From a virus: a stretch of 29,540 bases of DNA. The notes under the pieces are model-generated. The model had not been told where the DNA came from. It searched no databases and was given only the letters and a program-made list of their open reading frames with translations. Location: IMG/VR virus record IMGVR_UViG_3300017963_000619, positions 1 through 29,540 of that record. The stretch is one strand, 5' to 3'. The position numbers were made by a program, and so were the translations under genes. Positions 1,831-22,008 of this stretch are shown here, piece by piece. How positions within the stretch are numbered: position 1 is the stretch's first letter; each line of letters begins with the position of its first letter.

Positions 1831-2223
1831 TCAAATTCCATAGTCTTTTAGAAACTGTTTTACATTAAAATTGGGACATGTTTTACCATTTGTAAATTCA
1901 TAATGCCCATGTATAGTCACACCAGGATAAAGCATCTTTAAACTTCTCAGAAGATCTGTCAAAGTACTCCATTGTGGATCTGTAAAAGTATCAATACCAA
2001 TTAGACAAATACCTAAACTATTTCTATTATGTCCTACTACGTGTGCTCCTTTCCAATAATGAGGTCTACCTCTCTCAAGAGCACCATCTTCACAAATAAC
2101 GTAGTGATAACCGATTCCTGACCAACCTCTTGCTAAATGCCATTCGTGAATATCTTCAGCACCTGTACCATGGCCATGAGGAGAGTCTGAACAATGTAAT
2201 ACTATCTTTTCAATAATATACAC
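1831..2223 (-). CDS. N-acetylmuramoyl-L-alanine amidase (T7 lysozyme-like endolysin)
   Basis: A 130-residue zinc amidase of the Amidase_2/PGRP fold, similar in size to T7 gp3.5. It should cut the bond between N-acetylmuramic acid and L-alanine in peptidoglycan during lysis. The zinc ligands are visible: H10 in IVLHCSDS, H107 in HGHYEF and C116 in GKTCPNF. Y39 (GIGYHYVI) and K114 (K-T-C) occupy the places of T7 catalytic Y46 and K128. There is no signal peptide, so export would need a holin. The start is GTG, sharing one base with the upstream TAG stop (TAGTG), so translation is coupled. Whether it also inhibits an RNA polymerase, as T7 lysozyme does, cannot be judged because no polymerase gene lies in this window. 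Confidence 0.95.
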   Translation of the reverse strand: MYIIEKIVLHCSDSPHGHGTGAEDIHEWHLARGWSGIGYHYVICEDGALERGRPHYWKGAHVVGHNRNSLGICLIGIDTFTDPQWSTLTDLLRSLKMLYPGVTIHGHYEFTNGKTCPNFNVKQFLKDYGI

Positions 2224-2516
2224 TATTTATCCCTCATAGTAAATTTTATAGTTCTATCATCTTCTCTGCCATCATTAGTTACTATATGGCATGTTGCGTA
2301 ATAGATACGATTTCGATCTCCATCTTCTAACCAAATAGTAGTAGTAGTGTTACTAAAACTACTTAATACTTCTGATAAAGCACCTGGAGGAGTGATGTTC
2401 CAACTTGAAGCTGTTATAAAATCTCCAGTTTTCAACCAAGGAGACCAATCTATCGTATAATCTAATACCGCTTCTGGATCTTTTTTCTCTTCGAAAGTAT
2501 GGATAGGTTGTGCCAT
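2223..2516 (-). CDS. Putative phage fibre-tail adaptor-like protein, 97 aa
   Basis: A 97-residue protein with the pattern F-x-x-KDPEAVLDYTIDWSPWL, then D-F-I-T-A-S-S-W, then IWLEDGD, and a beta-rich end (ATCHIVTNDGREDDRTIKF). I recall this pattern from small phage proteins annotated as fibre-tail adaptor or unnamed structural proteins that sit beside tail-fibre genes. It follows the 1371-residue repeat protein directly and precedes the amidase, which fits a virion role. The pattern is recalled without a search, so the product name is tentative. A GGGGA ribosome-binding site precedes the ATG. Confidence 0.75.
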   Translation of the reverse strand: MAQPIHTFEEKKDPEAVLDYTIDWSPWLKTGDFITASSWNITPPGALSEVLSSFSNTTTTIWLEDGDRNRIYYATCHIVTNDGREDDRTIKFTMRDK

Positions 2517-2547: not shown

Positions 2548-5500
2548 TCATCTCTTTTGAAGTGGCCTATCACTTACTATATAAACTCTCAACTCGGAAT
2601 TAACAATATAGGTTCTAGATTCACTAGCTACCTGATAGATATTCTCTGAATTATCGCTTAAATTAAACTTCTTAGGTATATTAGAAGTTAATTGTAATTG
2701 TCCAAGACCAGGAAGAATTAATTTCTCATCGCTCTTCAGTATGAGAGGTTCTTCTTCTGTTATTGTAATACTACCAATACCTATATCTACAAACTTGTTA
2801 TCACTTAAGCTTGCTGCAGGTATGGTAGTACTTAGTGCTAAAGAAGTAGCATCAACACTTCTATAATGATTTGCTACAGTAGTAACTGTAGGTATTTGTC
2901 CAGTTAATGATAAAGATCCCTCATTAGGATTAGCATCTTTAGGATCTACATGGATATAGGTTAGTGGCTGGCCAGTTATTACTAATGAACCAGGATCTAC
3001 AGAGATTCTATGATCTGCTGTAGTATCTATTACTGGAGTTTCACTGGTAAGTGTTAAACTCTCATTTGAAGGAATTCTTCTAATATCATAAAGAGGATCT
3101 GGAGCATATCCAACTAGCTCTATAGAGCCTTTCCCGATATCTATAAATCTATTTGCTGTAGCATTTACTACAGGTTGATAACCTACTAATGAGAGAGCAG
3201 CTACTCCAGGCCCTGCTGCTTTGTTATCTCCAGCGGTAAGTAAAGGTTGTTGTCCAGAGATTGCTAAAGAATTGACATCTGGGGTAACAACTTTATTATC
3301 TATTCTTACAATAGTAGGTTCATAGCCTACTAGCGTTAAACTGCCTACCTGTGGTAATTCTGATAATGAAGTTAAAACTGTAGGAACATTGGTTGATAAA
3401 GTAAGAGATTCTTTTGTAGGATTACTTACTTTGTTATCACCAGTAATTAAAGTAGGTTGTTCACTAGTTAAAGTGAGTTCAGCCTTATTTGGAGCAACAG
3501 TTTTATTATCTGTCCATACTACTGTAGGAGTCTCTTCTGTTACGGTCAGAGATCCTACTGAAGGGTTAACAGATTGAGCTGCAGTAGCTGAAATTATTGG
3601 CTCATAGCCAACTAATGTCAAAATTCCTTTATCAGGGCTTTCAGATAATGAAGTTAGTATAGTAGGTTCATAGCCCACTAAATCTAACGTGCCTTTATCT
3701 GGTGCTTCTGATAAAGAGGTTAATACAACTGGTTGCTGACCAGCAAGTGTCAGGATACCTTTATTAGGAGACTCTGACAGAGAAGTGAGTATAGTTGGTT
3801 GCTTACCGTCTAATGTTAATGTTGCTCTAGTGGGGTTAGCTAGACGGTTATCTCCGGAAATTAAACTAGGTTGTTCTCCAGAAAGAGTAAGAGCTGTACT
3901 ATTCGGTTGAACTGTTTTATTGTCAGTCCAAACAACTACTGGTTCATAAGTTGTTAAATCAATTGTTCCTACAGTAGGATAAACAAATTGATTCGCAGTT
4001 GTTGAAACAGTTGGTTCGTAGCCTGTTAAAGTTAAATCTCCAGCATTGGGAGATTCTGACAATGAAGTTAGTATAGTGGGTTCATAACTAGTAAGCGTTA
4101 TAGAACCAACTGAAGGTGCTTCTGATAATGAGGTTAATACAGTAGGTTCATAACCTACAATATTTAAAATGCCTTTATTCGGAGATTCAGATAATGATGT
4201 TAGTACTGTTGGTTCATATCCTACTAAATCTAAAACACCTTTATTAGGCGATTCAGATAAAGAAGTTAATACCGTAGGAGTTTCTTCACTAAGAGTTAAG
4301 ATACCCTTAGTTGGATTTACAATTTTATTATCGCCAGCAATTAAACTGGGTTGCTCTCCTGATAAAGTAATTGATCCGACATTAGGGGTAACAGTTTTAT
4401 TATCTGTCCATACAATTGTCGGTTCTTGTCCAGTGAGTGTTAAAGATCCTACTGAAGGAGACTCAGATAGTGAAGTTGTGATAACAGGTTCATAACCTGT
4501 TAACGTCAAATCATCTTTAGTAGGATTAGCTACTCGATTGTCACCAGCAAGGATACTGGGCTGTTCACCGGATAAAGTAAGTGAGTTTACATTAGGTTGA
4601 ACAGTTTTGTTATCAGTCCAAACTATTGTAGGTGTTTCTCCAGTGAGAGTCAGATTACCTACATTGGGACTAGCTGATCGGTTGTCAGTAGTTGTAACTG
4701 TGGGTTGTAACCCGGTTAAAGAGAGTGAAGTAACTGCTGGTGAAACTTGTCCTAAAGTATATAAAGTTACTCCAATAGATTCTTCTTCATACTCCTGAGC
4801 TATAGGAGTTTGTTTTGTGAGTGATAAAGAACCTATTTGTGGTACTACTACTCCTAATGGAGCCAATATATTGGGTTGCTCTCCAGTTAAAGAAAGAGAA
4901 CCAGTATCAGGATTTACTACATGATTATCAGTCCTATCTGGTACAGGAGTATCACCAGTTAAAGTTAGAGACCCTACTCCAACAAGTGGGAAAGCATTAG
5001 CACTTCTAGTAACTAAAGGTGTTTCTTCAGTTATTTGAAGAACGTTTGTAGCAGGGTTTACTATCTTTTGATCAGTAGCAGAAAGCGCAGGTTCTTGACC
5101 TGTTAAAGCTAAAGAATTAGTGTTAGGTGAATTTACCTTGTTATCTGTCCATATTACTGTCGGTGTTTCTTCTGTTATAGAAAGAGTAGCTTCAGAAGGT
5201 GCTTTAGACAGGAAATTAGTAGTATTTATAATTGGTTCATAACCAACTAAATCTAAAGTACCTGTAGATGGACTTTCAGATAGAGTAGTTAATACTGTAG
5301 GTACTTCTCCAGTTAAAGCTAATACTTCTGAATCAGGTTTAGCTGTAATTGCAACAAAATCTACAGGCGTTTGACCTGTTAATGTCAAATCTCCAATGTC
5401 GGGAGATTTAGTAATGTTAACAGAAGCTGTTGCAGTAGGTTCATAACTAGTTAGTGTTATCTCCCCGACTACAGCAAAAATCTTTTCATCTTGTGTTATT

Positions 5501-6663
5501 ACTGGTTCATTTGTTGTTAAAGACAATTCACCAACAGAAGGTGAAGATGTCTTATTATCTGTCCATAATATTGTTGGTGTTTGTTCTGTAAGAGCTAATG
5601 TTTTAACATCAGGCGTCTTAGTATGATTTCCATCTGCTACTATTGTTATTCTAGGAGTATTAGTATAAGTACTAAGAGCACTAGCAATTATATCAAAACT
5701 GTATATACGAAAATCAAGTGTATCATCAGTAGTTACATCATCTCCGCGAATATCTAAAGCAATTAAAATTTCTGCTTCACTATTAGCATCTATATTTCCA
5801 GTATTACTGGCAGCAGTAGTAGTAGAAATAACATTAGTATTCGTACTAGTAAAAGTACCTGCACCTAATTGTTGAGTAGTTGTTCCAGCATTTGTTAAAG
5901 CGGAATCTACATAACCTCTTACATTACTAGTAATATTGGTGATAATAGTATATGCACCGCTATTCTTACTTAAAGCTATTCTCCAACCACTAGAGTGAGT
6001 TGCTCCACCACTTTCTTGTAATAAAAATCTAAGCTGAATATATGCATGACCACCTGCACCAGGATCAGTTAAATTTATATTAGTATTAAGAGCTTCTAAC
6101 CAAGTAGGAGAACTTTCTGAACTACCTGTTTCAACAAATCTAAAACTATCTTGATCAAGTGTTAATACAGCAGGAGCATCTGGTACAGTAAGACCTATAT
6201 AAGAAACAGCAGCCGTTCGTTGATTGGGTCCACCACCTGCCGTATGCGCTGTAATCCGTACCCGTACATCAGACCAATCGGTGATAGAAGTACTATTAAA
6301 GGTTACTGATGAGTTTCCAGCAAATGCTCCTTCATTTGCAGTAAGATCGGTCAACCCTGCTACGAGAGAAGCCCCCTCATAAACCTGTATATCAAGAGTT
6401 GATGAACCGCCGCCACTGCTAGGTGCAGGAGTACCCGCATCCTCGTCTGCCTGCGCTTGGTAAACAAGAAGCGTGCAAAGGCCTGATTGGGGTACAGAAG
6501 AGCTAAGGTCAGTTAATAAGACTTCAAACGATACATCAGAGCCGTTTACACCATACCAATAATCTCCAGCGTCTGGAGCAGTTCCATCGACAACAAGATG
6601 GGAATTAGTACTAGGTGTTCCCCCAGAAGAAATCTGGGAGATAGGGCGCATTGATTGGGCCAT
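2548..6663 (-). CDS. Large repeat-containing fibre-like structural protein, 1371 aa
   Basis: The protein has three parts. Residues 1 to about 160 are glycine/serine-rich and beta-like, starting MAQSMRPISQISSGG and ending near GLTVPDAPA. Residues about 160-348 form another beta-rich domain. Residues 349-1338 consist of 42 tandem units of about 21-25 residues with consensus P-x-x-G-x-L-x-L-T-G-x-x-P-T followed by a linker such as V-L-T-S-L-S-E or V-W-T-D-N-K. The last 33 residues carry a repeated S-E-x-R-x-Y-I-V motif, seen in phage virion proteins. No enzyme motif or signal peptide is visible. It is probably an elongated tail or head fibre. The first 160 residues are encoded by markedly GC-richer DNA (64 of 120 bases at 6361-6480 by hand count) than the repeat array, suggesting domain exchange. 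The ATG directly follows the stop of a 34-codon gene. Confidence 0.88.
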   Translation of the reverse strand: MAQSMRPISQISSGGTPSTNSHLVVDGTAPDAGDYWYGVNGSDVSFEVLLTDLSSSVPQSGLCTLLVYQAQADEDAGTPAPSSGGGSSTLDIQVYEGASLVAGLTDLTANEGAFAGNSSVTFNSTSITDWSDVRVRITAHTAGGGPNQRTAAVSYIGLTVPDAPAVLTLDQDSFRFVETGSSESSPTWLEALNTNINLTDPGAGGHAYIQLRFLLQESGGATHSSGWRIALSKNSGAYTIITNITSNVRGYVDSALTNAGTTTQQLGAGTFTSTNTNVISTTTAASNTGNIDANSEAEILIALDIRGDDVTTDDTLDFRIYSFDIIASALSTYTNTPRITIVADGNHTKTPDVKTLALTEQTPTILWTDNKTSSPSVGELSLTTNEPVITQDEKIFAVVGEITLTSYEPTATASVNITKSPDIGDLTLTGQTPVDFVAITAKPDSEVLALTGEVPTVLTTLSESPSTGTLDLVGYEPIINTTNFLSKAPSEATLSITEETPTVIWTDNKVNSPNTNSLALTGQEPALSATDQKIVNPATNVLQITEETPLVTRSANAFPLVGVGSLTLTGDTPVPDRTDNHVVNPDTGSLSLTGEQPNILAPLGVVVPQIGSLSLTKQTPIAQEYEEESIGVTLYTLGQVSPAVTSLSLTGLQPTVTTTDNRSASPNVGNLTLTGETPTIVWTDNKTVQPNVNSLTLSGEQPSILAGDNRVANPTKDDLTLTGYEPVITTSLSESPSVGSLTLTGQEPTIVWTDNKTVTPNVGSITLSGEQPSLIAGDNKIVNPTKGILTLSEETPTVLTSLSESPNKGVLDLVGYEPTVLTSLSESPNKGILNIVGYEPTVLTSLSEAPSVGSITLTSYEPTILTSLSESPNAGDLTLTGYEPTVSTTANQFVYPTVGTIDLTTYEPVVVWTDNKTVQPNSTALTLSGEQPSLISGDNRLANPTRATLTLDGKQPTILTSLSESPNKGILTLAGQQPVVLTSLSEAPDKGTLDLVGYEPTILTSLSESPDKGILTLVGYEPIISATAAQSVNPSVGSLTVTEETPTVVWTDNKTVAPNKAELTLTSEQPTLITGDNKVSNPTKESLTLSTNVPTVLTSLSELPQVGSLTLVGYEPTIVRIDNKVVTPDVNSLAISGQQPLLTAGDNKAAGPGVAALSLVGYQPVVNATANRFIDIGKGSIELVGYAPDPLYDIRRIPSNESLTLTSETPVIDTTADHRISVDPGSLVITGQPLTYIHVDPKDANPNEGSLSLTGQIPTVTTVANHYRSVDATSLALSTTIPAASLSDNKFVDIGIGSITITEEEPLILKSDEKLILPGLGQLQLTSNIPKKFNLSDNSENIYQVASESRTYIVNSELRVYIVSDRPLQKR
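2650..5619 (-). repeat. 42 tandem ~70-bp coding repeats in the 1371 aa protein
   Basis: I count 42 consecutive units, most 63-75 bp (21-25 codons), with one 35-codon unit carrying an insertion near 4745-4850. Each encodes P-x-x-G-x-L-x-L-[TV]-G-x-x-P-T, where the invariant prolines and glycine probably mark turns between short beta strands. Linkers fall into a few recurring types: VLTSLSE, VWTDNK, AGDNK/R and TTAN. Units sharing a linker type recur out of strict order (WTDNK followed by GEQPS and GDN appears several times), which suggests higher-order duplication of two- or three-unit blocks. Confidence 0.92.
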
Positions 6664-6951: not shown

Positions 6952-7413
6952 TTATGCCAAAGTAAAGATACCAGCAGTAGCCATCTGAATAGTCAGTGTA
7001 TTACCAGTAGTTACATCAAAAGGAGATGTAGATAACTGAGAATAACACAGGAGGAATCCAGAAGTAGCAGCGACAGACCTAATAATTACGCCATACTTCA
7101 CTGCGGAAATGTCAGTACCAGTAGCGGTAACAACAAGATCATCTGAATCAAATTTCTGAACAGATGTCGCAGTAGTAGTCCAGCTAGTGTTTGCCAGAAC
7201 CTCACCACCAGTAGTATAAGCACCACCAGTACATTGGTTGGAGATCTGTGATTGAATACTCAAAGTAAGGTTAGCAGCATCTTTAGTAGCAGATGTAGCA
7301 CTCTTATAAAGAGCAAGACGGAAAGAGTCACCGGAAAGGTTAATACCATCGGCAGACCCAAGAGCAAGTTTATGTTTGGCTTCGTGGTAGAAAGCCCAAG
7401 CAGTAGCAGCCAT
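6952..7413 (-). CDS. Phage structural-type protein, 153 aa
   Basis: The start (AFYHEAKHKLALG, then D-S-F-R-L-ALYKSATSA) and the later G-G-x-Y-T-T-G-G-E-V-L segment match, from memory, a family of small beta-rich phage proteins commonly found next to tail-fibre and tail-assembly genes. Their exact role is not established to my knowledge. The rest alternates short beta-prone segments and ends in an F-D-V-T-T-G-N-T-L-T-I strand typical of virion surface proteins. The ATG shares its first base with the upstream TAA stop (TAATG). A virion component is likely. Confidence 0.8.
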   Translation of the reverse strand: MAATAWAFYHEAKHKLALGSADGINLSGDSFRLALYKSATSATKDAANLTLSIQSQISNQCTGGAYTTGGEVLANTSWTTTATSVQKFDSDDLVVTATGTDISAVKYGVIIRSVAATSGFLLCYSQLSTSPFDVTTGNTLTIQMATAGIFTLA

Positions 7414-8882
7414 TACGCTAATTCCTCTAATGATGGGAGTCTAGCTCCCGTTTCTAAAATATAGGCGATTAAACCATCACCTTTTACTTCTAGAGAAAAT
7501 TCATTATCGGCTGCATCGAGGAGCTTCATCATTTCCCATGCTTGTAATGCCATCCAGGGTTGACATCTAAAGGTACGACCCTCAATCATGACAGAAATAG
7601 TTTCAGTTATTACATCATTCTCTGCTTGTTGATAAGCATGATGTTCATCGCCTATTATACACGAATCCATGCCATAAATGATCTGATTTTTAAAACCTAA
7701 TATACGCATTAATACAATTGCTCTAAGAGCTACTGTAGATCCTCCAGCACAAATGACATGTTCTGGATAATTTTCAGCTACAGCAGTTACAGCCTCTTTA
7801 GAAGGAGTGACATGCCAGTAAAAAGTTCTATCTTTTGGAAGATTTTCAAACATACTGGGATGACATTGTGAAGCTATGAAATAGAGACAATCATCTCTAG
7901 CAGGTTCTACAAAGCGCTTATTGTGTTCTCTAGCATCTAGAACACATTGGTTTACTCTAGTTATTCCATTATCTAGACACCAATTATAAGCACCATTGAC
8001 AGTAACTATCTTCATTCCATTTTTCCAATTCTCAATAATTTCTTCCTTGTAATCATTGAGAGAAGGTCCTCCACAAAGGACCATGATAGTTTTGTCTTCT
8101 TGTACTTGATGAGGTTTTATGTGTTGACAGCCCCATTCTGCATTTTTGATGATATTACTAACTATAACAGGTTGGCTAGTATTTACTTTCATCTCAGGGA
8201 GAGTTTGTCTCCAAGCTGTCACATAGAAATCTACGGCACTGCCTAAATTCTCTGAAAAGAAAATAGTACAACCTAACTCAAGAAATTTACTTTCCCACCA
8301 AGAGTAATCTTTAACAGTTAGATGTAGTGGTTGATTTAAATATTCAGGACCCATTACATCAGGTGTGGTAGAAATTCTAAAGAATACCTTTCTAGCTGCT
8401 CCTAGAATATTCAGAAGAACTTTGTCTACATCTTCTGTAGGAATATGCTCCATGACATCTGTGCAATAGCCATATTCTGCATTTATAGGAGCTTCTTGAG
8501 TTAGATCATGTTCTATAAATTGAAATTTAGTTGGATGATTCTTCATTGCCAACTTAACTTCAGGATCTAAGCAGTTAGGTGCAAAATCTAACATCTTGCA
8601 TTCCATACCACACATCATAGCCAACCAGAAAGAACCTCTTCCAGTACCACATCCGAAGTCAATTACCTGAGCACCTCTAGTAGGTTTTACTACTTGTGCA
8701 AATTGATTGCCTGCTAGCTCTCCAGGAGAGACCTTTCTATAGGCATCTACTGTCCACATCTTTGTGTATTTTTCTTTTTCTGTTAAATCGGACATTTTCT
8801 TTTTAGGTTTAGCAGATTCATCTATAGGTTTGATAGCTGTGGTAGGAGTTTCACCTGACATTCCAACTTTCTTAGTTAACAT
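7413..8882 (-). CDS. SAM-dependent methyltransferase fused to a DUF115 (Maf/MptE-like) domain, 489 aa
   Basis: Residues about 40-230 form a class I SAM-dependent methyltransferase. Motif I is VIDFGCGTGRGSFWLA (73-88), an acidic residue follows at D99, and DVMEHIP (142-148) corresponds to the usual D-x-x-E-H-I motif. Residues about 262-430 match the DUF115 family seen in Maf flagellin-glycosylation proteins and MptE-like pterin enzymes: VLCGGPSLNDY (268-278), TVNGAYNWCL (294-303), CAGGSTVALRA (378-388) and IYGMDSCIIGDEHH (402-415). The family suggests transfer of a nucleotide-linked group, and the pairing with a methyltransferase suggests tailoring of a glycan or virion surface. The substrate is unknown. 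The gene lies between two fibre genes and shares one base with the next. Confidence 0.86.
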   Translation of the reverse strand: MLTKKVGMSGETPTTAIKPIDESAKPKKKMSDLTEKEKYTKMWTVDAYRKVSPGELAGNQFAQVVKPTRGAQVIDFGCGTGRGSFWLAMMCGMECKMLDFAPNCLDPEVKLAMKNHPTKFQFIEHDLTQEAPINAEYGYCTDVMEHIPTEDVDKVLLNILGAARKVFFRISTTPDVMGPEYLNQPLHLTVKDYSWWESKFLELGCTIFFSENLGSAVDFYVTAWRQTLPEMKVNTSQPVIVSNIIKNAEWGCQHIKPHQVQEDKTIMVLCGGPSLNDYKEEIIENWKNGMKIVTVNGAYNWCLDNGITRVNQCVLDAREHNKRFVEPARDDCLYFIASQCHPSMFENLPKDRTFYWHVTPSKEAVTAVAENYPEHVICAGGSTVALRAIVLMRILGFKNQIIYGMDSCIIGDEHHAYQQAENDVITETISVMIEGRTFRCQPWMALQAWEMMKLLDAADNEFSLEVKGDGLIAYILETGARLPSLEELA

Positions 8883-8906: not shown

Positions 8907-11900
8907 TTAAATAGGATTCCATACATATAATGTGGCAGCTCCTGGAGCTAATCCTCCAAAATTTACCGTAATAGTGATAGTAGTTGCATCTTCATCTGTT
9001 ACCAGTTGTTCTACTCTGGTTCCTCCTTGTTCTAAGAAGACTCTTTTACCAGAAGCTGCTACAGTACCACTGATTGTTATTATAACTCCTGTTTGGCCTT
9101 CGTAGATAGTTTCATCTATATCTACATCAGTAATTGTCCAACCAGTAGCACCACTAGAAACGGAAGGCAATACTCCAGTTATTATTAATGAGTTACCATC
9201 TGGGGTTATTGTTATACCTGTGACAGTATACTCATAAGCACCTATGTCCCAGGTACCTGTTCTTGTATTCCCGGCAATGTCGTCATCGAAACCGAGCGTA
9301 GCAGAAAGGTCGATGCCATTGTCGATCAGCGCACTGCCGCTGGACGGGGAATAATCGCCGCCTGCAAAGTTGTTAAAATCCGTAGAGTCAATAGTTTGCT
9401 GGTTTGAGCCAAATGCCCCTGTACTGCTAAATGCGTTATAGCCGCTACTCGCGTTAGGTGTTGTCACTGACGTGTCGTCAACCGGGCCATAAAAAACATT
9501 ATTTCGGCAGATTATATCAGTGGTCGTAGCCCCTACTCCCCACGAAAGCGAATTTGACGTTCCAGTTCCACAGATAAGTGTATTGTTGGAAAAAGGCATC
9601 TCACCTCTCGGATCAATAACACAAGCAGTGCCACTTGCGGAGATGATTAGCGAATTTCTAATGTACGAAGGGGCATTGGGTACAGCGACTCGCAAGCCCC
9701 TTTCTCCACCAGCAGTTCTAATAATGCAACGCTCAAGTACAAAATTAGTAGGGTACAATCGCAACCCTTGTGCCCCCGCGCCAGTACTGCTGTTGGTAAA
9801 TTGTATGTCTCTAAGTTCTGTGTATGGTTCGTAAATCTGAAAAGCAACACTTATACTGTACGAAGTGGTAATTTCTGCCCCGCCACCAACCACACCGCCA
9901 TGCTCTTCACCGGCACCTGCCTTTATCTCAATAAAACATAATGCATCCGTGTCCCAATCAGTGAGAGACAGCGTGCCCGATTCACTGATTGTGCCAAAAA
10001 TCTCAAAAGAACACTGTTCACCCAGCGCGACAAGATTACCCTGTTCCGATGATTCGGCTGTACTGAACAATGTATAATCTTTGCCCGATCCGACGGTCAC
10101 AGTATTTATATCAAACTTATATGCGCCAATATCAAAGCTGCTGGCATACCGTGTCGCGGTGCCGCGTATGTCGTCGGTAAACGTGCTGCTCAGGTCTACG
10201 CCCGCGTTGTATAGTGCGGAGTCGGCGTTGATGCGGTAGTCGCCATTGGCGAAATCCACGAAGTCGTCGGCGGTTATGCCGGTGATTGGGGAAGTACCCA
10301 ATGCTGATGTGTCACCCGATGCGTTATTTGAGGCTATTACGTTAGTATATAGATAGTCTGAAGTATATGCTCCATAAGCAACACAGTTTCTTACAGTTGT
10401 TGGAGAACCCCCGGAATCAGACACATTAATCCCATACCTTCCACCAATTGTAGTGCAATTGTAGAATTGTATATTCGGGTCAAAGTTTCCTGCGGCAATG
10501 CATGATCCAGAGATAGACCCTGACTCATGAATCACTAACGAATTGCGCACAACATTATTATCATCAGTTACGTTAATCCCCGTATCCGCGGATGTGCTGT
10601 TACTAATAACAATTACTCTGTCCACAACATTATAATTTTGTATAAGCGATATTTCTTGTCCCTGAAACCCAGTTCTTGTATTGCGGACTTCTATACCATA
10701 AATTTCTGTATAAGCAGCACTAACTCTAAATACTTGCCCAAAATTCGAACCAATATCAGTACTAATATAAAAACCATCACCCGGCACGCCGTTGTGTTCA
10801 TGTCCTGCCGCCGCTTTAACTGTGATGTAAAAACTGGCATCAACAGTCCAACCGTCAATGTTTACAGAATCATCTAACCCACTTGGCCAATCTGCGTAAC
10901 AATCTAAAATATGCTTATCGCCAGCCGTTGCAAGGTCTGTTTGTTCACTTTCCTCCCAAGTAGCAATTGACGAGTAATCCCCGCCTGTAGATTTTAGAGT
11001 GCGGAGTATGTAGTCAGTATCGAACGCGCCTATCGACCACTGGGTTCTGGTTTCACCGCGCAGGTCAAGAGAACCTATCGTTGCAGAAAGGTCTGCACCA
11101 GCGCCCCACAGATCGCCAGTATTTATTGGGCGATAGCCGGTCGCGTGTAAGTCTGTGCCGGAAGCAATGCCCGTTATGGTGCCGATGCTTAACGTTGACA
11201 CGGAGGTATCACCGCTGGCGTTGTTAGACGAGTTCGTTGTGTCGAAGGTATTAAAAAAATCAGCGTTGTTATCAAACGCCACGCAGTTTTTAGCTATTGC
11301 CCCGGTATAACCATCAAAGCCCCGGTCTGCGCCTATCGCAGTACAGTTGTAAAAATGAGTAACATCCTGTGTAGCAGCAAAACCAGTGACCGTGCCGACG
11401 TTAGTCATAATGGCAAGGCAGTTGTAAAATCTTGATGGGGTGCTATCCGTGGGTGAATCTAAAGAGGCCCAAAATCCGGTATGCGTCCCGCCAGTAGCAT
11501 TAGGCGCACTGGCAATGCACCGTTCAACTAAACACCCTTGGTTTATCCTGAATATCTCCAGCGAAGTAAACGCCGCTTCAACGCAAGAGGCTTCTATGTC
11601 CTGAATTACCGTGCTGTCTTGGCTGACCTCAAAAACATTAACAGACCCTGCTGTCAGTCGTTTCATATGAAAACCAGCACCCGGCACGCCACCATGCCCC
11701 TCACCAGCGGCAGCACGAATTGTGATGTAATACGTTGGACTTGTCGTCCAGCCATTAAGGTAAAGCGCCTCATTTAGCGTTCCATCACTTTGCCAGTTGC
11801 CTTCGATTGTGGTGCCTTTGTAGCATTCAAGAATGTGCTTGTCGCCGCTTGCGGTCAGGCTTGTTTGCTCGGTCTGCTCCCACGTAATCATGCTGCTGTA

Positions 11901-14900
11901 ATCTTTGCCCGTTGAGCCCAGCGTGCGCAGTATGTAGTCCGTATCGAACGCACCGATGGACCAGACTGATCTGGTTTCGCCACGCAGGTCATCGGTAAAG
12001 GTGCCAGATAGATCGGCACCTGCGCCCCACAAGTCTTGCGCGTCATCGGGCCGATAGTTGTCGTTGGCGAAGTCTACGAAATCTGAGGAATCTATAGTGA
12101 CCTGATTACTACCAAACGCGCCAGTGCTCCCGAATGCGTTGTTCGTGTTTGTGCCACCCCCATCCGCATCCGTGTCTGCTGCGCCATAGAACACGTTGTT
12201 TTGAAAGTTTGCCGTGGGCTTTGTTGTTGTAGTGACATCAAACGTGCCGATCACCGTGTTGTTATATATGTTTCCGGCGTTGTCGCGCCCATCTATCTCA
12301 AGCGCCAAATATGCGGGGTTGGCATTGTATATTAAGCAATTATAGACATTGTGCGGTCCACAGGCGTTTAGCCTTAATGCAGACCCATCTGATCCAGTGT
12401 TACCTATTATGCAGCGATGGAACTCCTGATCGTCGTGGACGTTATTGGTTAATACTGCCGGAAACGGCACTGCGCTTGTCATCTCAATTTCGATATCATA
12501 AAACCTACAGTATGGTTGGTTTACTGTGAGCGTACTGGGGGTGGCGCCGTAAACGAGCTTAAACCCTGCGCCAAGGACGCCTTTGTGTTCGTGCCCAGCA
12601 GCAGCTTTTACGGTAATGGTGTTTGTCGCAGTTGTTACCCAATCCTGTATTTCAACATGCTCATTAAGCCCACTGGGCCAATCCGCGTAGCACTCTAAAA
12701 TGTGTTTATCACCGCTTGTGGTAAGATCAGTTTGTTCAGTGCTCTCCCACACAGAGATACTGCTGTAATCTCCGCCAGTGGACTTCAGGGTATAGATCAC
12801 ATAGTCCGAGTCATACGCGCCGATACTCCACACATCACGCGGCCTGCTGCGTATATCGCTAGTAAAATCAGTAGACAAGTCTTCACCAGCACCCCACAAG
12901 TCACCAGCTTCTAGTGGGCGGTATGTAGTGTTGTAATCTGTACCGGAGGCGATGCCTGTGTAAACAGTAGTGCCGGGAGCGGAAATATCTACGCTGGCAT
13001 TGTAATCTGTGCCGGTTCCATATGATGTGGCGGCAAAATTAGTGCCGCCGCCTAATCCAGCACAATTTTTAACTATAGCAACAGCACTTCCAGAAAAATC
13101 AGTTCCGGCAGTCATTGCAGAAGTACAGTTGATGAATTTAGTTGGATCACCACCCGCATAAAAGCCAGTTTTTAAGTTGTTCGGTGTGTTATAAGCCAAA
13201 CAATTTATGAATACGTTGTAGTCTGCTTCAGAGTTAAAGTCGGACAAAAACACTCTAACTGTTCCCGCAGTACTGTTTGGCATAGAGCCGATGCAATTCT
13301 CGATGGTTGAATAAAAACCAATACGAAAAACGCCAGTGCCTGTATAACCTGCGAGCGTGTTTGCAGCTTCAATGTTTTGTATTTTGCTATAGAGTTGATT
13401 GACTATTAATACCGCATTAAGCGTGTCAAGATCGGACGCAAGCATAAAGCCAGTGCCCGGTACGCCATTGTGCCCTTGACCGGCTGCCGCACGAATTGTC
13501 ACAAAGTAGCTACTGTTTGTTGTCCAGCCTATTAAATGTACTTCTTCATTTAGTGACCCATCCGCTGCCCAGTTGCCAGTAATAGTTGTGCCTTTGTAGC
13601 AGTCGAGGATATGCTTATCACCAGTGCTGGTCAGGTCTTTCTGCTCGGTCTGCTCCCAAGTAACAATTGATGAATAATCCCCGCCTGTGGATTTCAGGGT
13701 GCGGAGTATGTAATCGGTGTCGAACGCACCAATGGACCAGACTGATCTGGTTTCGCCGCGAATATCATCCGTGAACGTACCTGAGAGGTCTGCGCCAGCG
13801 GCCCACAAGTCCTGTGTATCTACCGGGCGGTAATTGTCGTTGGCTGTGTCCACAAAGTCGGCTGTGGTTATGCCGGTGACCGTGCCAATGCTCAGTGTGG
13901 ATACGGAGGTGTCTCCGCTGGCATTATTTGATGAAACTGTATTAAACGCAGTACCGGTAAAATCAGCAGTTGAATTATTATAAGCCACACAATTTCGAGC
14001 GTAAGCAGATTCAAGACTGTTTGTACCCGTGCCGTTTGATCTAAAACCATAGGAGCTATTAACAGCAGTGCAATTGTACCAACGTGAGCCGTAAAAGACA
14101 GTAGTCATATTAAATGCTACATGTGAGTCAAAAGCTAGGCAATTGGTCATCGTGCAGCGCCTGGTTGAAAACGCCCCATAATTTATATCAGTATCATTCG
14201 GGCAACTGGCTATGCACCGATTTAAAACTATAGTGTGCGTAGTGGTAGTCCCATTATAAAAACCTCTCGCTTGACTAGAAGCAAGATTTTCTACTTCGAT
14301 GTCGTTAATTACAGAATAGTCTTGCCAAACACTAAATATTGAACTTCCGACACTGCCTACCCTAGACATAAAGAACCCCGTTTTTGACATGCCCTTATGT
14401 GCATGTCCTGAAGCGGTTCTTACGGTCACGTAGTATGAAGAACTAGTTGTCCAACCATTTAAAGAAACTGAATCGTCAAGCCCACTCGCCCAGTCGTTAT
14501 AGCACTCCAATATGTGTTTATCACCACTTGCAGTAAGGTCTGCTTGCTCGGTGCTCTCCCACGTACTCATCAGGGAGTAATCGCCCGTTCCATCACGCAA
14601 CGTGCGGAGAATATAATCAGTATCGACCGCACCGATGGACCACTCAGTTCTGGTCTCGCCTCGAAGGTCATCGGTGAAGCCTGCGGTTGCTGAAAGGTCC
14701 GTGCCAGTGCCCCACAGATCACCAGTTTCTATTGGGCGATAGCCGGTAGCGAAAAAATCTGTGCCGGAGGCGATGCCTGTGTAAACAGTAGTACCCGGCG
14801 CACTGGTGTCTCCACTGGCATTATAATCGCTCGTTGGGTCCACATTAGCGTCAAAATCTGCTACATCAAACCCAGAAGCGACACAATTTTTATAGATAGG

Positions 14901-16418
14901 TTCATTGCCGGTAGCAGATGCATTATACCCATAGTCTGCTACGTTTAAATTTATAGCGGTGCAGTTATATACAGCATGGGCACGAAAATCGTCATGGTAT
15001 AAGGCACTTGATCCTGTACTACCTGCCGCATCAACAAGCATTAGACAGTTATAGATTTCCCCGTCTGTGGCCGTGTCGTTTTGTATACAACGCGCTGTAC
15101 CAGAGGCATTAGCATTATTGGCGTATAGCCAAAGGTTTCGCAAATAGGTTGGATTGCCCTGTAGCCGTAAACAACGATCATACCCAGTATGACTACCTGC
15201 GATAGAAAACCCTATATCAGAAACTATGGTGTGTGCTTGCGCTAACTGTAAAAGATAACGGGAAGTCGATACGCTAGTAGATGCCAAATAAAAACCTTCA
15301 TCTACTACACCTTTATGACCCTGCCCAGCAGCAGCTCGGATTGTTATAAAATTTGTGGCACTAGTGGTCCAACCCCCGAGTGTTATATTATTTTCTACGA
15401 GTCCACTCGCCCAATCTGCATAGCATTCCAGAATGTGCTTGTCGCCGGTACTAGTCAGGTCTGCCTGCTCGGTGGACTCCCACGTAGACATTGACGAATA
15501 ATCCCCGGCACTGGAGCGCAAGGTGTAGATCACATAGTCTGAGTCGTAAGCACCGATTGACCATACATCGCGCACCTGCTGACCGCGTATGTCGCTGGTA
15601 AACGTACCTGAGAGGTCGGTGCCTGCGCCCCACAGATTGCCAGTGTCGAGTGGGCGATAGGTAGTGTTGTAATCTGCGGAAGTGATGCCAGTGACTGCGC
15701 CTGTGCCGGTTGCGCTGGTATCCTCAGAGGCACAGTAGGTCATTGTTACTGCCGCGCCGGAGTCACTGCCAGCCAAATTATAGCCCCCGGTTGTTCCCCC
15801 AATAGCCAAACAATTGGTTAATGTTACAGCGTCTGAATCGGCACGTGAAAAAGAGTAGCCACCTCCGACAAACGTACAATTTTGAAAGGTATTTATTGCG
15901 CGTGTATAAACTGTCGAAGAACTCGTAGAGTCAGTCTTAAACAGGCAATTTTGGTAGATATTGTTGTCATAACCCGATGTGACAATTTGAAGGGCGTTGC
16001 CACCTGTTGCACTTATTATACATTCATAAAATTCAGCGAAATCATTAGCTACCCCTATCACATAACCTGCTGAAGCATTAGTATTTTTGATCTCCAGTTT
16101 TGAGCACACTACATATGTATTTTGTATTCTGAGCGTGTAGCTTGATGCACTTGAAGTAAATACCGCTCCACCACCGGGGACGCCGTTATGGTGCTCACCA
16201 CTGCCAGACGTTATGGTTACTCTGTTACTTGCGCCTGTTGTCCAGTCATTAACGATAAGGGCGACAGCACCTTCGTCCACCGTGCCGTAGATTTCAAACG
16301 TCATGGTATTGCCGTCACCCACGAGATTCCCGTAGGTGCCCTGCTCGGATGCTTCAGCAGTTACCAGTGAAGTGTAATCATAACCACTAGCACCGACAGT
16401 GGCGACAATATCAGCCAT
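8907..16418 (-). CDS. Giant modular beta-helix tail fibre/spike protein, 2503 aa
   Basis: The protein is built of eight consecutive right-handed beta-helix modules of about 290-310 residues, beginning near residues 1, 293, 603, 904, 1207, 1496, 1803 and 2106. Internal modules open with T-L-K-S-T-G-G-DYSSMSTWE, then GDKHILECY and GWTTS...ITIRAAAGHEH-x-GVPG. They continue with repeated Y-N-C / x-N-C-x-A rungs and close with LWGAG-x-DLSGTFTDDIRGE then WSIGAYD-x-DY. That closing resembles the D-x-x-G-x-R...D-I-G-A-Y-E motif of choice-of-anchor Q proteins. Modules 1 and 8 differ in opening with V-G-S-G-x-DYT and E-x-SEQG. The last 105 residues hold one copy of the short P-x-x-x-L-x-I-T-G repeat and an IPT/TIG-like domain. 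There is no signal peptide or enzyme motif. Host-receptor or polysaccharide binding is the likely role. The start overlaps the upstream stop by one base (TGATG). Confidence 0.9.
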   Translation of the reverse strand: MADIVATVGASGYDYTSLVTAEASEQGTYGNLVGDGNTMTFEIYGTVDEGAVALIVNDWTTGASNRVTITSGSGEHHNGVPGGGAVFTSSASSYTLRIQNTYVVCSKLEIKNTNASAGYVIGVANDFAEFYECIISATGGNALQIVTSGYDNNIYQNCLFKTDSTSSSTVYTRAINTFQNCTFVGGGYSFSRADSDAVTLTNCLAIGGTTGGYNLAGSDSGAAVTMTYCASEDTSATGTGAVTGITSADYNTTYRPLDTGNLWGAGTDLSGTFTSDIRGQQVRDVWSIGAYDSDYVIYTLRSSAGDYSSMSTWESTEQADLTSTGDKHILECYADWASGLVENNITLGGWTTSATNFITIRAAAGQGHKGVVDEGFYLASTSVSTSRYLLQLAQAHTIVSDIGFSIAGSHTGYDRCLRLQGNPTYLRNLWLYANNANASGTARCIQNDTATDGEIYNCLMLVDAAGSTGSSALYHDDFRAHAVYNCTAINLNVADYGYNASATGNEPIYKNCVASGFDVADFDANVDPTSDYNASGDTSAPGTTVYTGIASGTDFFATGYRPIETGDLWGTGTDLSATAGFTDDLRGETRTEWSIGAVDTDYILRTLRDGTGDYSLMSTWESTEQADLTASGDKHILECYNDWASGLDDSVSLNGWTTSSSYYVTVRTASGHAHKGMSKTGFFMSRVGSVGSSIFSVWQDYSVINDIEVENLASSQARGFYNGTTTTHTIVLNRCIASCPNDTDINYGAFSTRRCTMTNCLAFDSHVAFNMTTVFYGSRWYNCTAVNSSYGFRSNGTGTNSLESAYARNCVAYNNSTADFTGTAFNTVSSNNASGDTSVSTLSIGTVTGITTADFVDTANDNYRPVDTQDLWAAGADLSGTFTDDIRGETRSVWSIGAFDTDYILRTLKSTGGDYSSIVTWEQTEQKDLTSTGDKHILDCYKGTTITGNWAADGSLNEEVHLIGWTTNSSYFVTIRAAAGQGHNGVPGTGFMLASDLDTLNAVLIVNQLYSKIQNIEAANTLAGYTGTGVFRIGFYSTIENCIGSMPNSTAGTVRVFLSDFNSEADYNVFINCLAYNTPNNLKTGFYAGGDPTKFINCTSAMTAGTDFSGSAVAIVKNCAGLGGGTNFAATSYGTGTDYNASVDISAPGTTVYTGIASGTDYNTTYRPLEAGDLWGAGEDLSTDFTSDIRSRPRDVWSIGAYDSDYVIYTLKSTGGDYSSISVWESTEQTDLTTSGDKHILECYADWPSGLNEHVEIQDWVTTATNTITVKAAAGHEHKGVLGAGFKLVYGATPSTLTVNQPYCRFYDIEIEMTSAVPFPAVLTNNVHDDQEFHRCIIGNTGSDGSALRLNACGPHNVYNCLIYNANPAYLALEIDGRDNAGNIYNNTVIGTFDVTTTTKPTANFQNNVFYGAADTDADGGGTNTNNAFGSTGAFGSNQVTIDSSDFVDFANDNYRPDDAQDLWGAGADLSGTFTDDLRGETRSVWSIGAFDTDYILRTLGSTGKDYSSMITWEQTEQTSLTASGDKHILECYKGTTIEGNWQSDGTLNEALYLNGWTTSPTYYITIRAAAGEGHGGVPGAGFHMKRLTAGSVNVFEVSQDSTVIQDIEASCVEAAFTSLEIFRINQGCLVERCIASAPNATGGTHTGFWASLDSPTDSTPSRFYNCLAIMTNVGTVTGFAATQDVTHFYNCTAIGADRGFDGYTGAIAKNCVAFDNNADFFNTFDTTNSSNNASGDTSVSTLSIGTITGIASGTDLHATGYRPINTGDLWGAGADLSATIGSLDLRGETRTQWSIGAFDTDYILRTLKSTGGDYSSIATWEESEQTDLATAGDKHILDCYADWPSGLDDSVNIDGWTVDASFYITVKAAAGHEHNGVPGDGFYISTDIGSNFGQVFRVSAAYTEIYGIEVRNTRTGFQGQEISLIQNYNVVDRVIVISNSTSADTGINVTDDNNVVRNSLVIHESGSISGSCIAAGNFDPNIQFYNCTTIGGRYGINVSDSGGSPTTVRNCVAYGAYTSDYLYTNVIASNNASGDTSALGTSPITGITADDFVDFANGDYRINADSALYNAGVDLSSTFTDDIRGTATRYASSFDIGAYKFDINTVTVGSGKDYTLFSTAESSEQGNLVALGEQCSFEIFGTISESGTLSLTDWDTDALCFIEIKAGAGEEHGGVVGGGAEITTSYSISVAFQIYEPYTELRDIQFTNSSTGAGAQGLRLYPTNFVLERCIIRTAGGERGLRVAVPNAPSYIRNSLIISASGTACVIDPRGEMPFSNNTLICGTGTSNSLSWGVGATTTDIICRNNVFYGPVDDTSVTTPNASSGYNAFSSTGAFGSNQQTIDSTDFNNFAGGDYSPSSGSALIDNGIDLSATLGFDDDIAGNTRTGTWDIGAYEYTVTGITITPDGNSLIITGVLPSVSSGATGWTITDVDIDETIYEGQTGVIITISGTVAASGKRVFLEQGGTRVEQLVTDEDATTITITVNFGGLAPGAATLYVWNPI
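10100..15540 (-). repeat. Six tandem ~0.9 kb internal beta-helix modules
   Basis: Module openings lie near bases 15540, 14610, 13708, 12800, 11933 and 11010, and the diverged last module opens near 10100, giving a period of about 870-930 bp. Module borders are conserved in DNA as well as protein: bases 11944-11980 and 13720-13757 are nearly identical, and a 27-bp stretch near 12945-12971 recurs near 14762-14789. Borders are GC-rich (37 of 60 at 12001-12060 and at 10141-10200) whereas module cores are AT-leaning (22 of 60 at 14221-14280, 21 of 60 at 10321-10380). Counts were made by hand. Confidence 0.88.
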
Positions 16419-19688: not shown

Positions 19689-20903
19689 TCAAGCCTCATC
19701 AACAGAAATTTGGACTAAATCACCAAAGGGTATTGCTGTCTCTTTAGAAACAGATACCCAGATTGTTGGATATATTGGTGCAGGAATACTTTTGTCAAAA
19801 TATAGGTCTGTTAAACATACTGCACAGTGAGCATCCCCTTGTTCATTCACATATTCAAAGAAAGGACCAGGATCGGTCCCTCCTCTTCCTATGAAGTCAA
19901 AACTAGCGGGAACTTCACCATGAGTAAATTCAGTAGTACCATGCACTCTTGCATCACAATGTACTATTACAGTCTTTTGTGGTTTTATGTGTTCCAATAT
20001 ATATTTCATTTCTGATGCGATAACTTCTGCTTCTTTGTTTGAGATTGATCCACTGCTATCTGGCCAAATATAAATTGTACCTACACCTTTCTTTTCAACA
20101 GATGGCATATACAATCCTTGATGTAAATATCTTCTATTTGGTCTTGCCCATGAATAATCTTCAGGATTATTTCCTTGAACTTTTCTAAATAATTTTGCTT
20201 TCCAATCTACTTGACTCTTCTTTAAACCCTTTATCAATTCTTTTAGAGAATTTGACTTGAGTCCAAAAGTATCTGCTGAGATAGCTGCGTTGAGGATTTG
20301 ACCCTCAACAACAGCTTTCATTGCTTCCATTTCGTCTTGACTTGCAGCTTGATCTTCATTCTCTGCACTAGATGGCACATATAAATGGCAATCAACTTGT
20401 TGTGGTACATCTTCATCTCTAAGATCATTGAAGATTCGTTCTGTTGACCATCCATGATATTTTGGCAGATATATAAAAGTTTCTGGATTTAAGTAGAAAC
20501 CTTCATCTTTCAATATTGGATTGATGGCGAGATCTGCTGCATAATTTAGTTTTCTGATAAGTTTATTATCTTCTCCTAGTAAAATCTCTTTTCTCATAAA
20601 ATGAAGAAAGATCTTGTGTAGAACTTCATGCACAATGGAGGATACAGCATCTTTTACTGTACCCTCTTCTACAACTGTAAAAGGATCATAATAAATATAC
20701 TTACCATCAGTAGCATAAGTTCCTAAACCTGGAACTGATTTATATTCCATGGTTAAACTCATGCTACCAAAAAATCTATGTCGTAAAAGTCTGATTTTCG
20801 CTTTTGATAATATATCTATGCATTTTTCTTGTATTTCTTCTGGCACTTCTGTTTTTGTAGCTTGTGGTAGATGTACTACCATGTGTCCTTTTTGCTTACT
20901 CAT
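19689..20903 (-). CDS. Zinc-metallopeptidase-like / VWA domain protein (DUF2201 type), 404 aa
   Basis: Residues about 15-150 carry a metallopeptidase-like domain with the HExxH motif HEVLH (92-96) inside a hydrophobic helix (IVHEVLHKIFLHF), and an aspartate at about 124 (YAADLAINP) that could complete the zinc site. Residues about 270-400 form a VWA domain with MIDAS motif DSSGS (282-286), GGTDP (341-345) and D366. The order matches the DUF2201/VWA-like proteins found beside MoxR ATPases. The DWK and YSWARPNRRY segment near 233-259 is also typical of them. ATG at 20903 is preferred over an in-frame GTG one codon earlier; GGAGGG precedes both. It overlaps the MoxR gene by 8 nt. N4-like phages are known to encode a similar pair. 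Confidence 0.93.
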   Translation of the reverse strand: MSKQKGHMVVHLPQATKTEVPEEIQEKCIDILSKAKIRLLRHRFFGSMSLTMEYKSVPGLGTYATDGKYIYYDPFTVVEEGTVKDAVSSIVHEVLHKIFLHFMRKEILLGEDNKLIRKLNYAADLAINPILKDEGFYLNPETFIYLPKYHGWSTERIFNDLRDEDVPQQVDCHLYVPSSAENEDQAASQDEMEAMKAVVEGQILNAAISADTFGLKSNSLKELIKGLKKSQVDWKAKLFRKVQGNNPEDYSWARPNRRYLHQGLYMPSVEKKGVGTIYIWPDSSGSISNKEAEVIASEMKYILEHIKPQKTVIVHCDARVHGTTEFTHGEVPASFDFIGRGGTDPGPFFEYVNEQGDAHCAVCLTDLYFDKSIPAPIYPTIWVSVSKETAIPFGDLVQISVDEA

Positions 20904-22008
20904 CACGCATACCCTCCAGATACATAGTCATATTCTCACGAATATAATCTTTGACTGAAGTTACACGGCGAGCTAAAGGAGACTTCAAACCACCAGTTCT
21001 ATCTAACATTGCAGTTACTAAGAAGGTAGAGAACTCTTGACCAGTTTCAGCTAATCTTCTAGTATAAGTGATGATATTGTCTGCATTCTTTTCTGTTGCT
21101 CTTCCTGATAATGCAATTGCTAATACGTATTTCATATTAGCATCTAGGTCTATGGGAGCTGTCTCTGGATCTTTAATTACTTTATCTGGATCAGGCATCT
21201 TTGCCCAAAGCATATCAAAGGATTTATAATCTCTAGTAGCAGCTTCACCTACTGTACCTATCATTGCTCGATATTTGCCTTCTTCATTTAGATAAGGATT
21301 ATCTAAGATAGTACCTGCTTTTTCCCAGCTTCTCGGATCTGGACATACAGGAACATTGGGGTCGAATTTATGTAACCATTCAGAACCCCTGATCTTAAGA
21401 TAAGCAGTAATCTTCTCATTGACACCTATTGTATTAAAGTGTTTTACAGTGTCTTCATAGAATGCCATTACCTTGAAATGGGCTAATCGTGATTCTAGAT
21501 GACTAGGCATTGGGTTAGTACCTGCTCTATTACTAGCATCATTAGATGCAAGAGCTACAACCCATCCATCAGGTAATTTATGCTCACCAATCCTGCCTTC
21601 ATTTGTTAGTTGTGCTACTATATTTTGATTGCTCATGTATGCTTGTGTAATCTCATCACAGAAAAGAATACCTCTGCCACTTCTAGGCATAAAAAATGGT
21701 CTAGCTCGTGCATAAGTGTTCTCACCATCTTTTACTGTGAGATATGGTAAGCCACCTAGATCTGCTTGATCATACTGTGCAATGATCAATGTCTCTAGAT
21801 GTACTTCTAATTCTTCTGCAATTTGTTCAAATATAGAAGTTTTACCAATACCAGGATCACCAATTAGATATGGAGTTATCAACTTACTAAACTTAGTGCC
21901 TTGTTCCCTAAGATCGAGATTGTGTTTGATTAAACCTTTACACAATTCCTTTGCTACAGGGATACGGAGTTTAGCTTCACTGTTGAGGATTTCATCCATA
22001 TTGCTCAT
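20896..22008 (-). CDS. MoxR-type AAA+ ATPase, 370 aa
   Basis: A single AAA+ module. Walker A is GDPGIGKTS (50-58), Walker B is ILFCDE (114-119), sensor 1 is N156 in ALASNDASN, and R174 in HLESRLAHF is the likely arginine finger. The GLPYL and ARPFFMP segments between Walker A and B, and the NEGRIGEHKLPDGW hairpin (136-149), are as in MoxR-family ATPases. The C-terminal 180 residues are the helical lid and tail. MoxR proteins act as chaperone-like remodellers with VWA partners, and the VWA gene follows with an 8-nt overlap. The ATG has GGAG upstream. Confidence 0.95.
   Translation of the reverse strand: MSNMDEILNSEAKLRIPVAKELCKGLIKHNLDLREQGTKFSKLITPYLIGDPGIGKTSIFEQIAEELEVHLETLIIAQYDQADLGGLPYLTVKDGENTYARARPFFMPRSGRGILFCDEITQAYMSNQNIVAQLTNEGRIGEHKLPDGWVVALASNDASNRAGTNPMPSHLESRLAHFKVMAFYEDTVKHFNTIGVNEKITAYLKIRGSEWLHKFDPNVPVCPDPRSWEKAGTILDNPYLNEEGKYRAMIGTVGEAATRDYKSFDMLWAKMPDPDKVIKDPETAPIDLDANMKYVLAIALSGRATEKNADNIITYTRRLAETGQEFSTFLVTAMLDRTGGLKSPLARRVTSVKDYIRENMTMYLEGMRDE

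Follow-up and report, generated by a model that had tools for sequence, protein, structure and literature searches.

The window analysed here, a 29,540 bp virus record that is probably a fragment, carries on its minus strand a single open reading frame in which a methyltransferase (MT) is fused to a DUF115 domain, and the same pair of domains recurs among virus-particle genes in many other phages. The explanation we favour, with somewhat better than even confidence, is that the protein is a CMP-ulosonate-type glycosyltransferase joined to a methyltransferase, which together modify virion proteins with a donor made by the host. The two domains, their intact motifs, their recurrent pairing and their location in virion modules are established.

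The fusion gene is read from 8882 to 7413, and the plus strand over the same interval is full of stops. Both domains score above the Pfam gathering cut-offs, Methyltransf_25 at residues 73-160 (E = 2.8e-7) and PF01973 at residues 244-409 (E = 8.3e-20; 71.7 bits against a cut-off of 34.6), the latter placing the protein in the MptE-like/DUF115 family; the fusion proposed in an earlier, sequence-only reading of this DNA is thus real. In an alignment of 18 rows (A1), consisting of the window protein and 17 further fusions at 39-46% identity, the invariant residues of the MT are motif I (D75-x-G77-x-G79-T80-G81), D99, D126 and D142-V-M-E145-H146. Those of DUF115 are GGP 271-273 (part of a conserved G271-G-P-S), N296, D316-x-R318, G380-G-x-T-V384, G404-x-D406 and H414-H-A-Y417, the last of which falls just beyond the end of the Pfam match. 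Because the architecture is kept in the 17 further fusions with the motifs of both domains invariant, the fusion is neither a chance event nor an assembly chimera; the many independent contigs with the same architecture rule out an artefact. The AlphaFold model built from the same alignment has a mean pLDDT of 85.4 and a pTM of 0.80, with very low confidence limited to residues 1-26. With the Pfam cut-off passed, DxGxGTG and D99 invariant, and the expected strand and helix order in the model, the MT has the features of a class I SAM-dependent methyltransferase; phosphoethanolamine and TehB-type methyltransferases are among its matches in the PDB. It is therefore described as a Rossmann SAM-methyltransferase with an intact motif that is apparently live. 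The loss of active-site residues from either domain, which the earlier reading would have counted against its proposal, appears not to have occurred, judged by the sequence motifs of both.

Maf and PseD are flagellin nonulosonic-acid transferases. PseD and WaaZ are both enzymes of CMP-ulosonates, the donor of WaaZ being CMP-Kdo, while MptE is an archaeal 6-hydroxymethylpterin diphosphokinase. Since PF01973 also covers MptE, membership in the family is not enough to settle the chemistry. The link to Maf that had been drawn from the sequence is nevertheless upheld by several comparisons. As a query against the PDB, the 18-row profile matches the Maf protein of Magnetospirillum magneticum (5MU5) over the DUF115 part (E = 4e-5), with GGGPSL aligned to GSGPSI and with the TV segment, LGF...L.G.D and HH also aligned. 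The profile was needed to reach this structure; the single DUF115 domain, searched with phmmer against the PDB, gave only weak and doubtful oxidoreductase matches. The motifs GxGPSL, D, TV, GxD and H are common to gammaproteobacterial cellular PF01973 proteins, so that a Maf_flag10 (PF01973) domain with its conserved motifs is present. The NCBIfam PseD model also matches the window protein (E = 3e-4), at a score, 19.3 bits, so far below its cut-off of 670 that PseD proper is rejected. WaaZ proper is rejected as well: its model (TIGR04437) gives a partial match of about 43 residues around the GGGPS region, in a second DUF115 ORF of one relative (L049) only, with E = 1.9e-5 and 24.2 bits against a curated cut-off of 200.

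The phage protein and Maf/PseD share a PF01973 domain that has the GxGPS, TV, GxD and H motifs and is preceded by a Rossmann domain, and the target of Maf/PseD is a protein filament, which would be a further likeness. In the Maf structure this N-terminal domain is a degenerate Rossmann fold, weakly methyltransferase-like (PMC11339370), whereas the phage MT has an intact SAM motif. The phage protein is also shorter (489 residues versus 666) and is without the long C-terminal helical domain, the roughly 80 residues after PF01973 being modelled as mixed strand and helix. Phage forms occur in virion operons, and also with the domain order reversed or with the two domains on separate genes. On this comparison of sequences, the phage protein is like a Maf whose MT is apparently live and whose long C-terminal domain is missing. 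The likeness to WaaZ, a Kdo-III transferase, lies in the GGGPS region of the second DUF115 ORF, but WaaZ acts on lipopolysaccharide and has no MT. MptE, judged by family membership alone, belongs to the same Pfam family; it is an archaeal pterin enzyme without an MT fusion, unlike the phage copies in their virion operon.

Features of the fusion gene and its neighbourhood, in coordinates of the window.
Feature	Coordinates	Strand	Basis or remark
Amidase	1831-2223	-	after the Gp77-type adaptor
Gp77-type podophage fibre-tail adaptor	2223..2516	-	PF23148, E = 5.5e-26
1371-aa short-repeat protein, 25% Ser+Thr	2548..6663	-	candidate acceptor; beyond phrog_644
phrog_644 protein, 153 aa, 26% Ser+Thr	6952..7413	-	candidate acceptor
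MT–DUF115 fusion gene	7413..8882	-	489 aa; Pfam, alignment A1, AlphaFold
DUF115/MptE-like (Maf-type) domain, aa 244-409	7656..8153	-	PF01973; 5MU5 profile match; cellular homologues
Methyltransferase domain, about aa 35-210	8253..8780	-	Methyltransf_25; alignment A1
2503-aa repetitive protein, units of about 300 aa, 22% Ser+Thr	8907..16418	-	candidate acceptor; upstream of the fusion; without a Pfam family

The main genes of the window lie on the minus strand. A replication block of podophage type, with a family A polymerase, a 5'-3' exonuclease and a Toprim/DnaB helicase, precedes a tail block, and it is the PF23148 adaptor that identifies the region as a tail module. The fusion had been described as lying between two fibre genes. 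This holds on the upstream side, where the 2503-residue repetitive protein is found; directly downstream, however, comes the gene of the phrog_644 protein, whose start shares one nucleotide with the fusion stop (TAATG), and the 1371-residue repetitive protein follows only after it. Both large proteins are fibre-like by their repeat character and neighbourhood only, and the phrog_644 profile has no match in the PDB. In the three candidate acceptors Ser and Thr make up 22-26% of residues, against 8-11% in the enzymes of the window. Elsewhere in the window, at 19689-22008, a DUF2201 metallopeptidase/VWA gene stands beside an ATPase of AAA type that looks MoxR-like by eye, the two making a cellular-looking pair within a phage, and a tRNA-Leu (TAA) lies at the left edge (43-129).

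As a single query, the window protein finds no match among viral contigs, and in 50,697 GenBank phage records it matched only MW202621 (Manatee Spring), over the MT part. In this metagenomic record the MT and DUF are split genes; the MT gene comes directly after a Gp13-like major capsid gene and shares 4 bp with a 277-residue gene that has a GGAPSL motif. Used as a query in turn, the MW202621 MT retrieved 236 relatives in viral contigs, and the alignment of fusions retrieved at least 576, together with 33 loci in genome contigs. With profiles built in this analysis, 194 loci were sorted by architecture. There are 122 MT–DUF fusions, 26 fusions in the reverse order (three of them, L010, L011 and L013, with a divergent DUF), about 15 adjacent pairs (14 plus L005) that often overlap and show both gene orders, and one DUF-only locus (L085); the remainder are MT-only and mostly bacterial. 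The search for the same fusion in other phages, suggested by the sequence-only reading, was therefore successful, and its remark that these domains are normally found on separate proteins does not hold for this family, in which fusion, in both orders, is the rule.

The MT tree places the two main fused groups together with a strong support of 99, apart from the split pairs, and in the tree of the DUF domains the DUF–MT fusions form one side of a branch with a support of 97; both trees were made by a quick method without bootstraps, and their deep branches are weak. Since L010 and L013 branch elsewhere than the main fused groups in the MT tree, fusion probably arose more than once, and we read the MT and DUF115 as a functional pair that has been fused repeatedly. 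The DUF partner in the split clades is only weakly linked to PF01973 (E = 0.0022). Direct BLASTP between the window DUF115 and the split DUF of MW202621 found no match and hhalign gave a probability of 30%, so the latter is only a probable member of DUF115; for the split partners in general, weak profile evidence, motif and position together make this identity probable.

The surroundings of these loci, which were found by sequence and not by context, point consistently to virion modules in different phage groups, although the counts are not independent because many of the loci are closely related. A phrog_644-like ORF lies within 150 bp downstream of the fusion in 109 of the 122 MT–DUF loci, or 109 of 114 once the eight of the remaining 13 that are cut off or have fewer than 65 bases left are set aside, and 67 of them have a gap of 1 nt. 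A second phrog_644-like ORF is present upstream in 89, and the virion structural family phrog_2941 in 92 of the 122. No phrog_644 was found beside complete copies of the other architectures, except after the DUF-only gene of L085. The DUF–MT fusions adjoin virion structural families in 21 of 23 loci, major head families in 17 and tail families in 22; most lie a few tens of bases past phrog_29386 (virion structural) and about 0.5 kb past phrog_9953 (major head), and tail and amidase genes come after them. Split DUF,MT pairs sit among genes for head closure, the major head protein and minor tail proteins, and in five of six loci a Sulfotransfer_3 gene is close by.

There are several side observations from these relatives. 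A sulfotransferase-family gene directly follows the MT in head-tail operons of L012 (1868-2467), L015, L016 (5241-5846), L018 and others, the Sulfotransfer_3 identity having been tested for L016, which suggests sulfated particles in this group. A second, free-standing DUF115 ORF of 234 residues lies close to the DUF–MT fusion or directly behind it in L026 (3188-3892) and L049 (5506-6210). In L014 (2151-2660) and L017 (6108-6638), whose operons have no detected DUF115 partner, another small protein carries a glycine motif, GGGxTLWxDL, similar to that of DUF115; the L014 copy has no Pfam match. Relatives of phrog_644 also close the tail operon of Mycobacterium abscessus prophages, after minor tail genes (L197:5001-5432), with no adjoining MT–DUF fusion. 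In a Rhodospirillales MAG (L097:5357-12522) an MT relative adjoins a second MT and genes for flagellar hook and flagellin-like proteins, which hints that the MT is also kin to flagellar modification.

Because the pair recurs so consistently among virus-particle genes, decoration of the phage's own particle proteins is probable. In the mechanism we propose, a two-domain tailoring enzyme would be produced together with the particle proteins; its Maf/PseD- and WaaZ-like DUF115 domain would take a host-made, CMP-activated 3-deoxy-ulosonic acid, CMP-Kdo in most Gram-negative hosts and nonulosonic acids in some, and attach it to Ser or Thr of a virion protein. The MT domain would then methylate the attached sugar, or the protein beside it, and in some relatives the sulfotransferase may add a further group. 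The parts of this explanation that we infer are the donor and the acceptor, the linkage, the order in which the steps occur, and the benefit. The acceptor, deduced from adjacency, would most likely be the phrog_644 protein, which is adjacent and co-translated, or the fibre-like proteins rich in Ser and Thr, and in relatives the head-module proteins adjoining the gene. The position favours virion proteins over a host surface glycan, and points to phrog_644 in the window clade and to head-module proteins in the sister clade more than to fibres as such. NeuB and CMP-sugar synthetases were absent from 23 phage records, many of them fragments, and were detected in control genomes. The donor would then be supplied by the host, unless it is of another kind. 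CMP-Kdo is a plausible donor because the Maf of C. botulinum can use Kdo (PMC11339370). The benefit may be masking of the particle, or tuning of its adsorption or stability.

It may be instead that the enzyme adds or methylates Kdo or nonulosonic acid on the host's lipopolysaccharide or capsule, a change that would keep competing phages from adsorbing, or released progeny from binding to debris. The presence of WaaZ, a lipopolysaccharide Kdo transferase, among the family matches and the common action of CMP-ulosonate enzymes on surface glycans speak for such a role, which we nonetheless consider unlikely, though well short of negligible: the gene is embedded in the virion structural operon across quite different phage clades and is co-translated with a structural-type gene, and glycan-synthesis genes are not found alongside.

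Decoration of virion proteins must also be weighed against two less probable accounts. The Pfam family is named after MptE, and generic methyltransferases of this type act on many small molecules, so one could imagine a pterin or nucleotide diphosphokinase that cooperates with the MT to produce or alter a small molecule or nucleic acid for the phage. This is improbable, as the solved-structure match over DUF115 is Maf, the NCBIfam matches are PseD and WaaZ, the neighbours are structural rather than nucleotide-metabolism genes, and the sulfotransferase partner fits glycan tailoring. Even less probable, to our judgement, is a mainly non-catalytic chaperone or assembly factor for the neighbouring protein whose folds are kept for binding. 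The tight co-translation with phrog_644 would suit it, as would L085, where DUF115 alone stands beside phrog_644, but a pure scaffold would not need SAM motif I, the acidic residues and the motifs of DUF115 to stay invariant at an overall identity of about 43%.

A precedent is found in cluster O mycobacteriophages, whose virions are reported to be modified by phage glycosyltransferases encoded beside an O-methyltransferase (PMC11600133, citing Freeman et al. 2023). There too a phage glycosyltransferase and methyltransferase modify capsid and tail proteins; as far as that description goes, these are separate genes in phages of other hosts and are not presented as DUF115 fusions. A literature search of partial coverage found no paper describing DUF115 in phages, and one lead, a BREX paper, was false, the domain there being DUF1156. 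That the fusion has apparently gone unremarked would be accounted for by its near absence from GenBank phages. If decoration of virions is correct, many environmental phages decorate their particles, with sugars that come from the host, using an enzyme type so far known from flagella and lipopolysaccharide; this would bear on how free virions escape recognition or attach to hosts, and would provide a compact, one-gene tool for protein glycosylation and methylation. More tentatively, and as a possibility that we hold at less than even confidence, this may be a system widespread in phages, yet almost missing from cultured ones, in which virions receive sugars derived from CMP-ulosonates (Kdo or nonulosonic acids of the host) that are then methylated or sulfated. 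Such a system would be the virus-side counterpart of Maf-type flagellin glycosylation, assembled repeatedly as fused or operonic MT and DUF115, with or without a sulfotransferase. A possible laboratory model is the cultured strain Lysobacter dokdonensis DS-58, which has a split MT and DUF pair (L096:5824-7240) in a prophage-like region, beside DnaT_2 and a prophage tape-measure gene.
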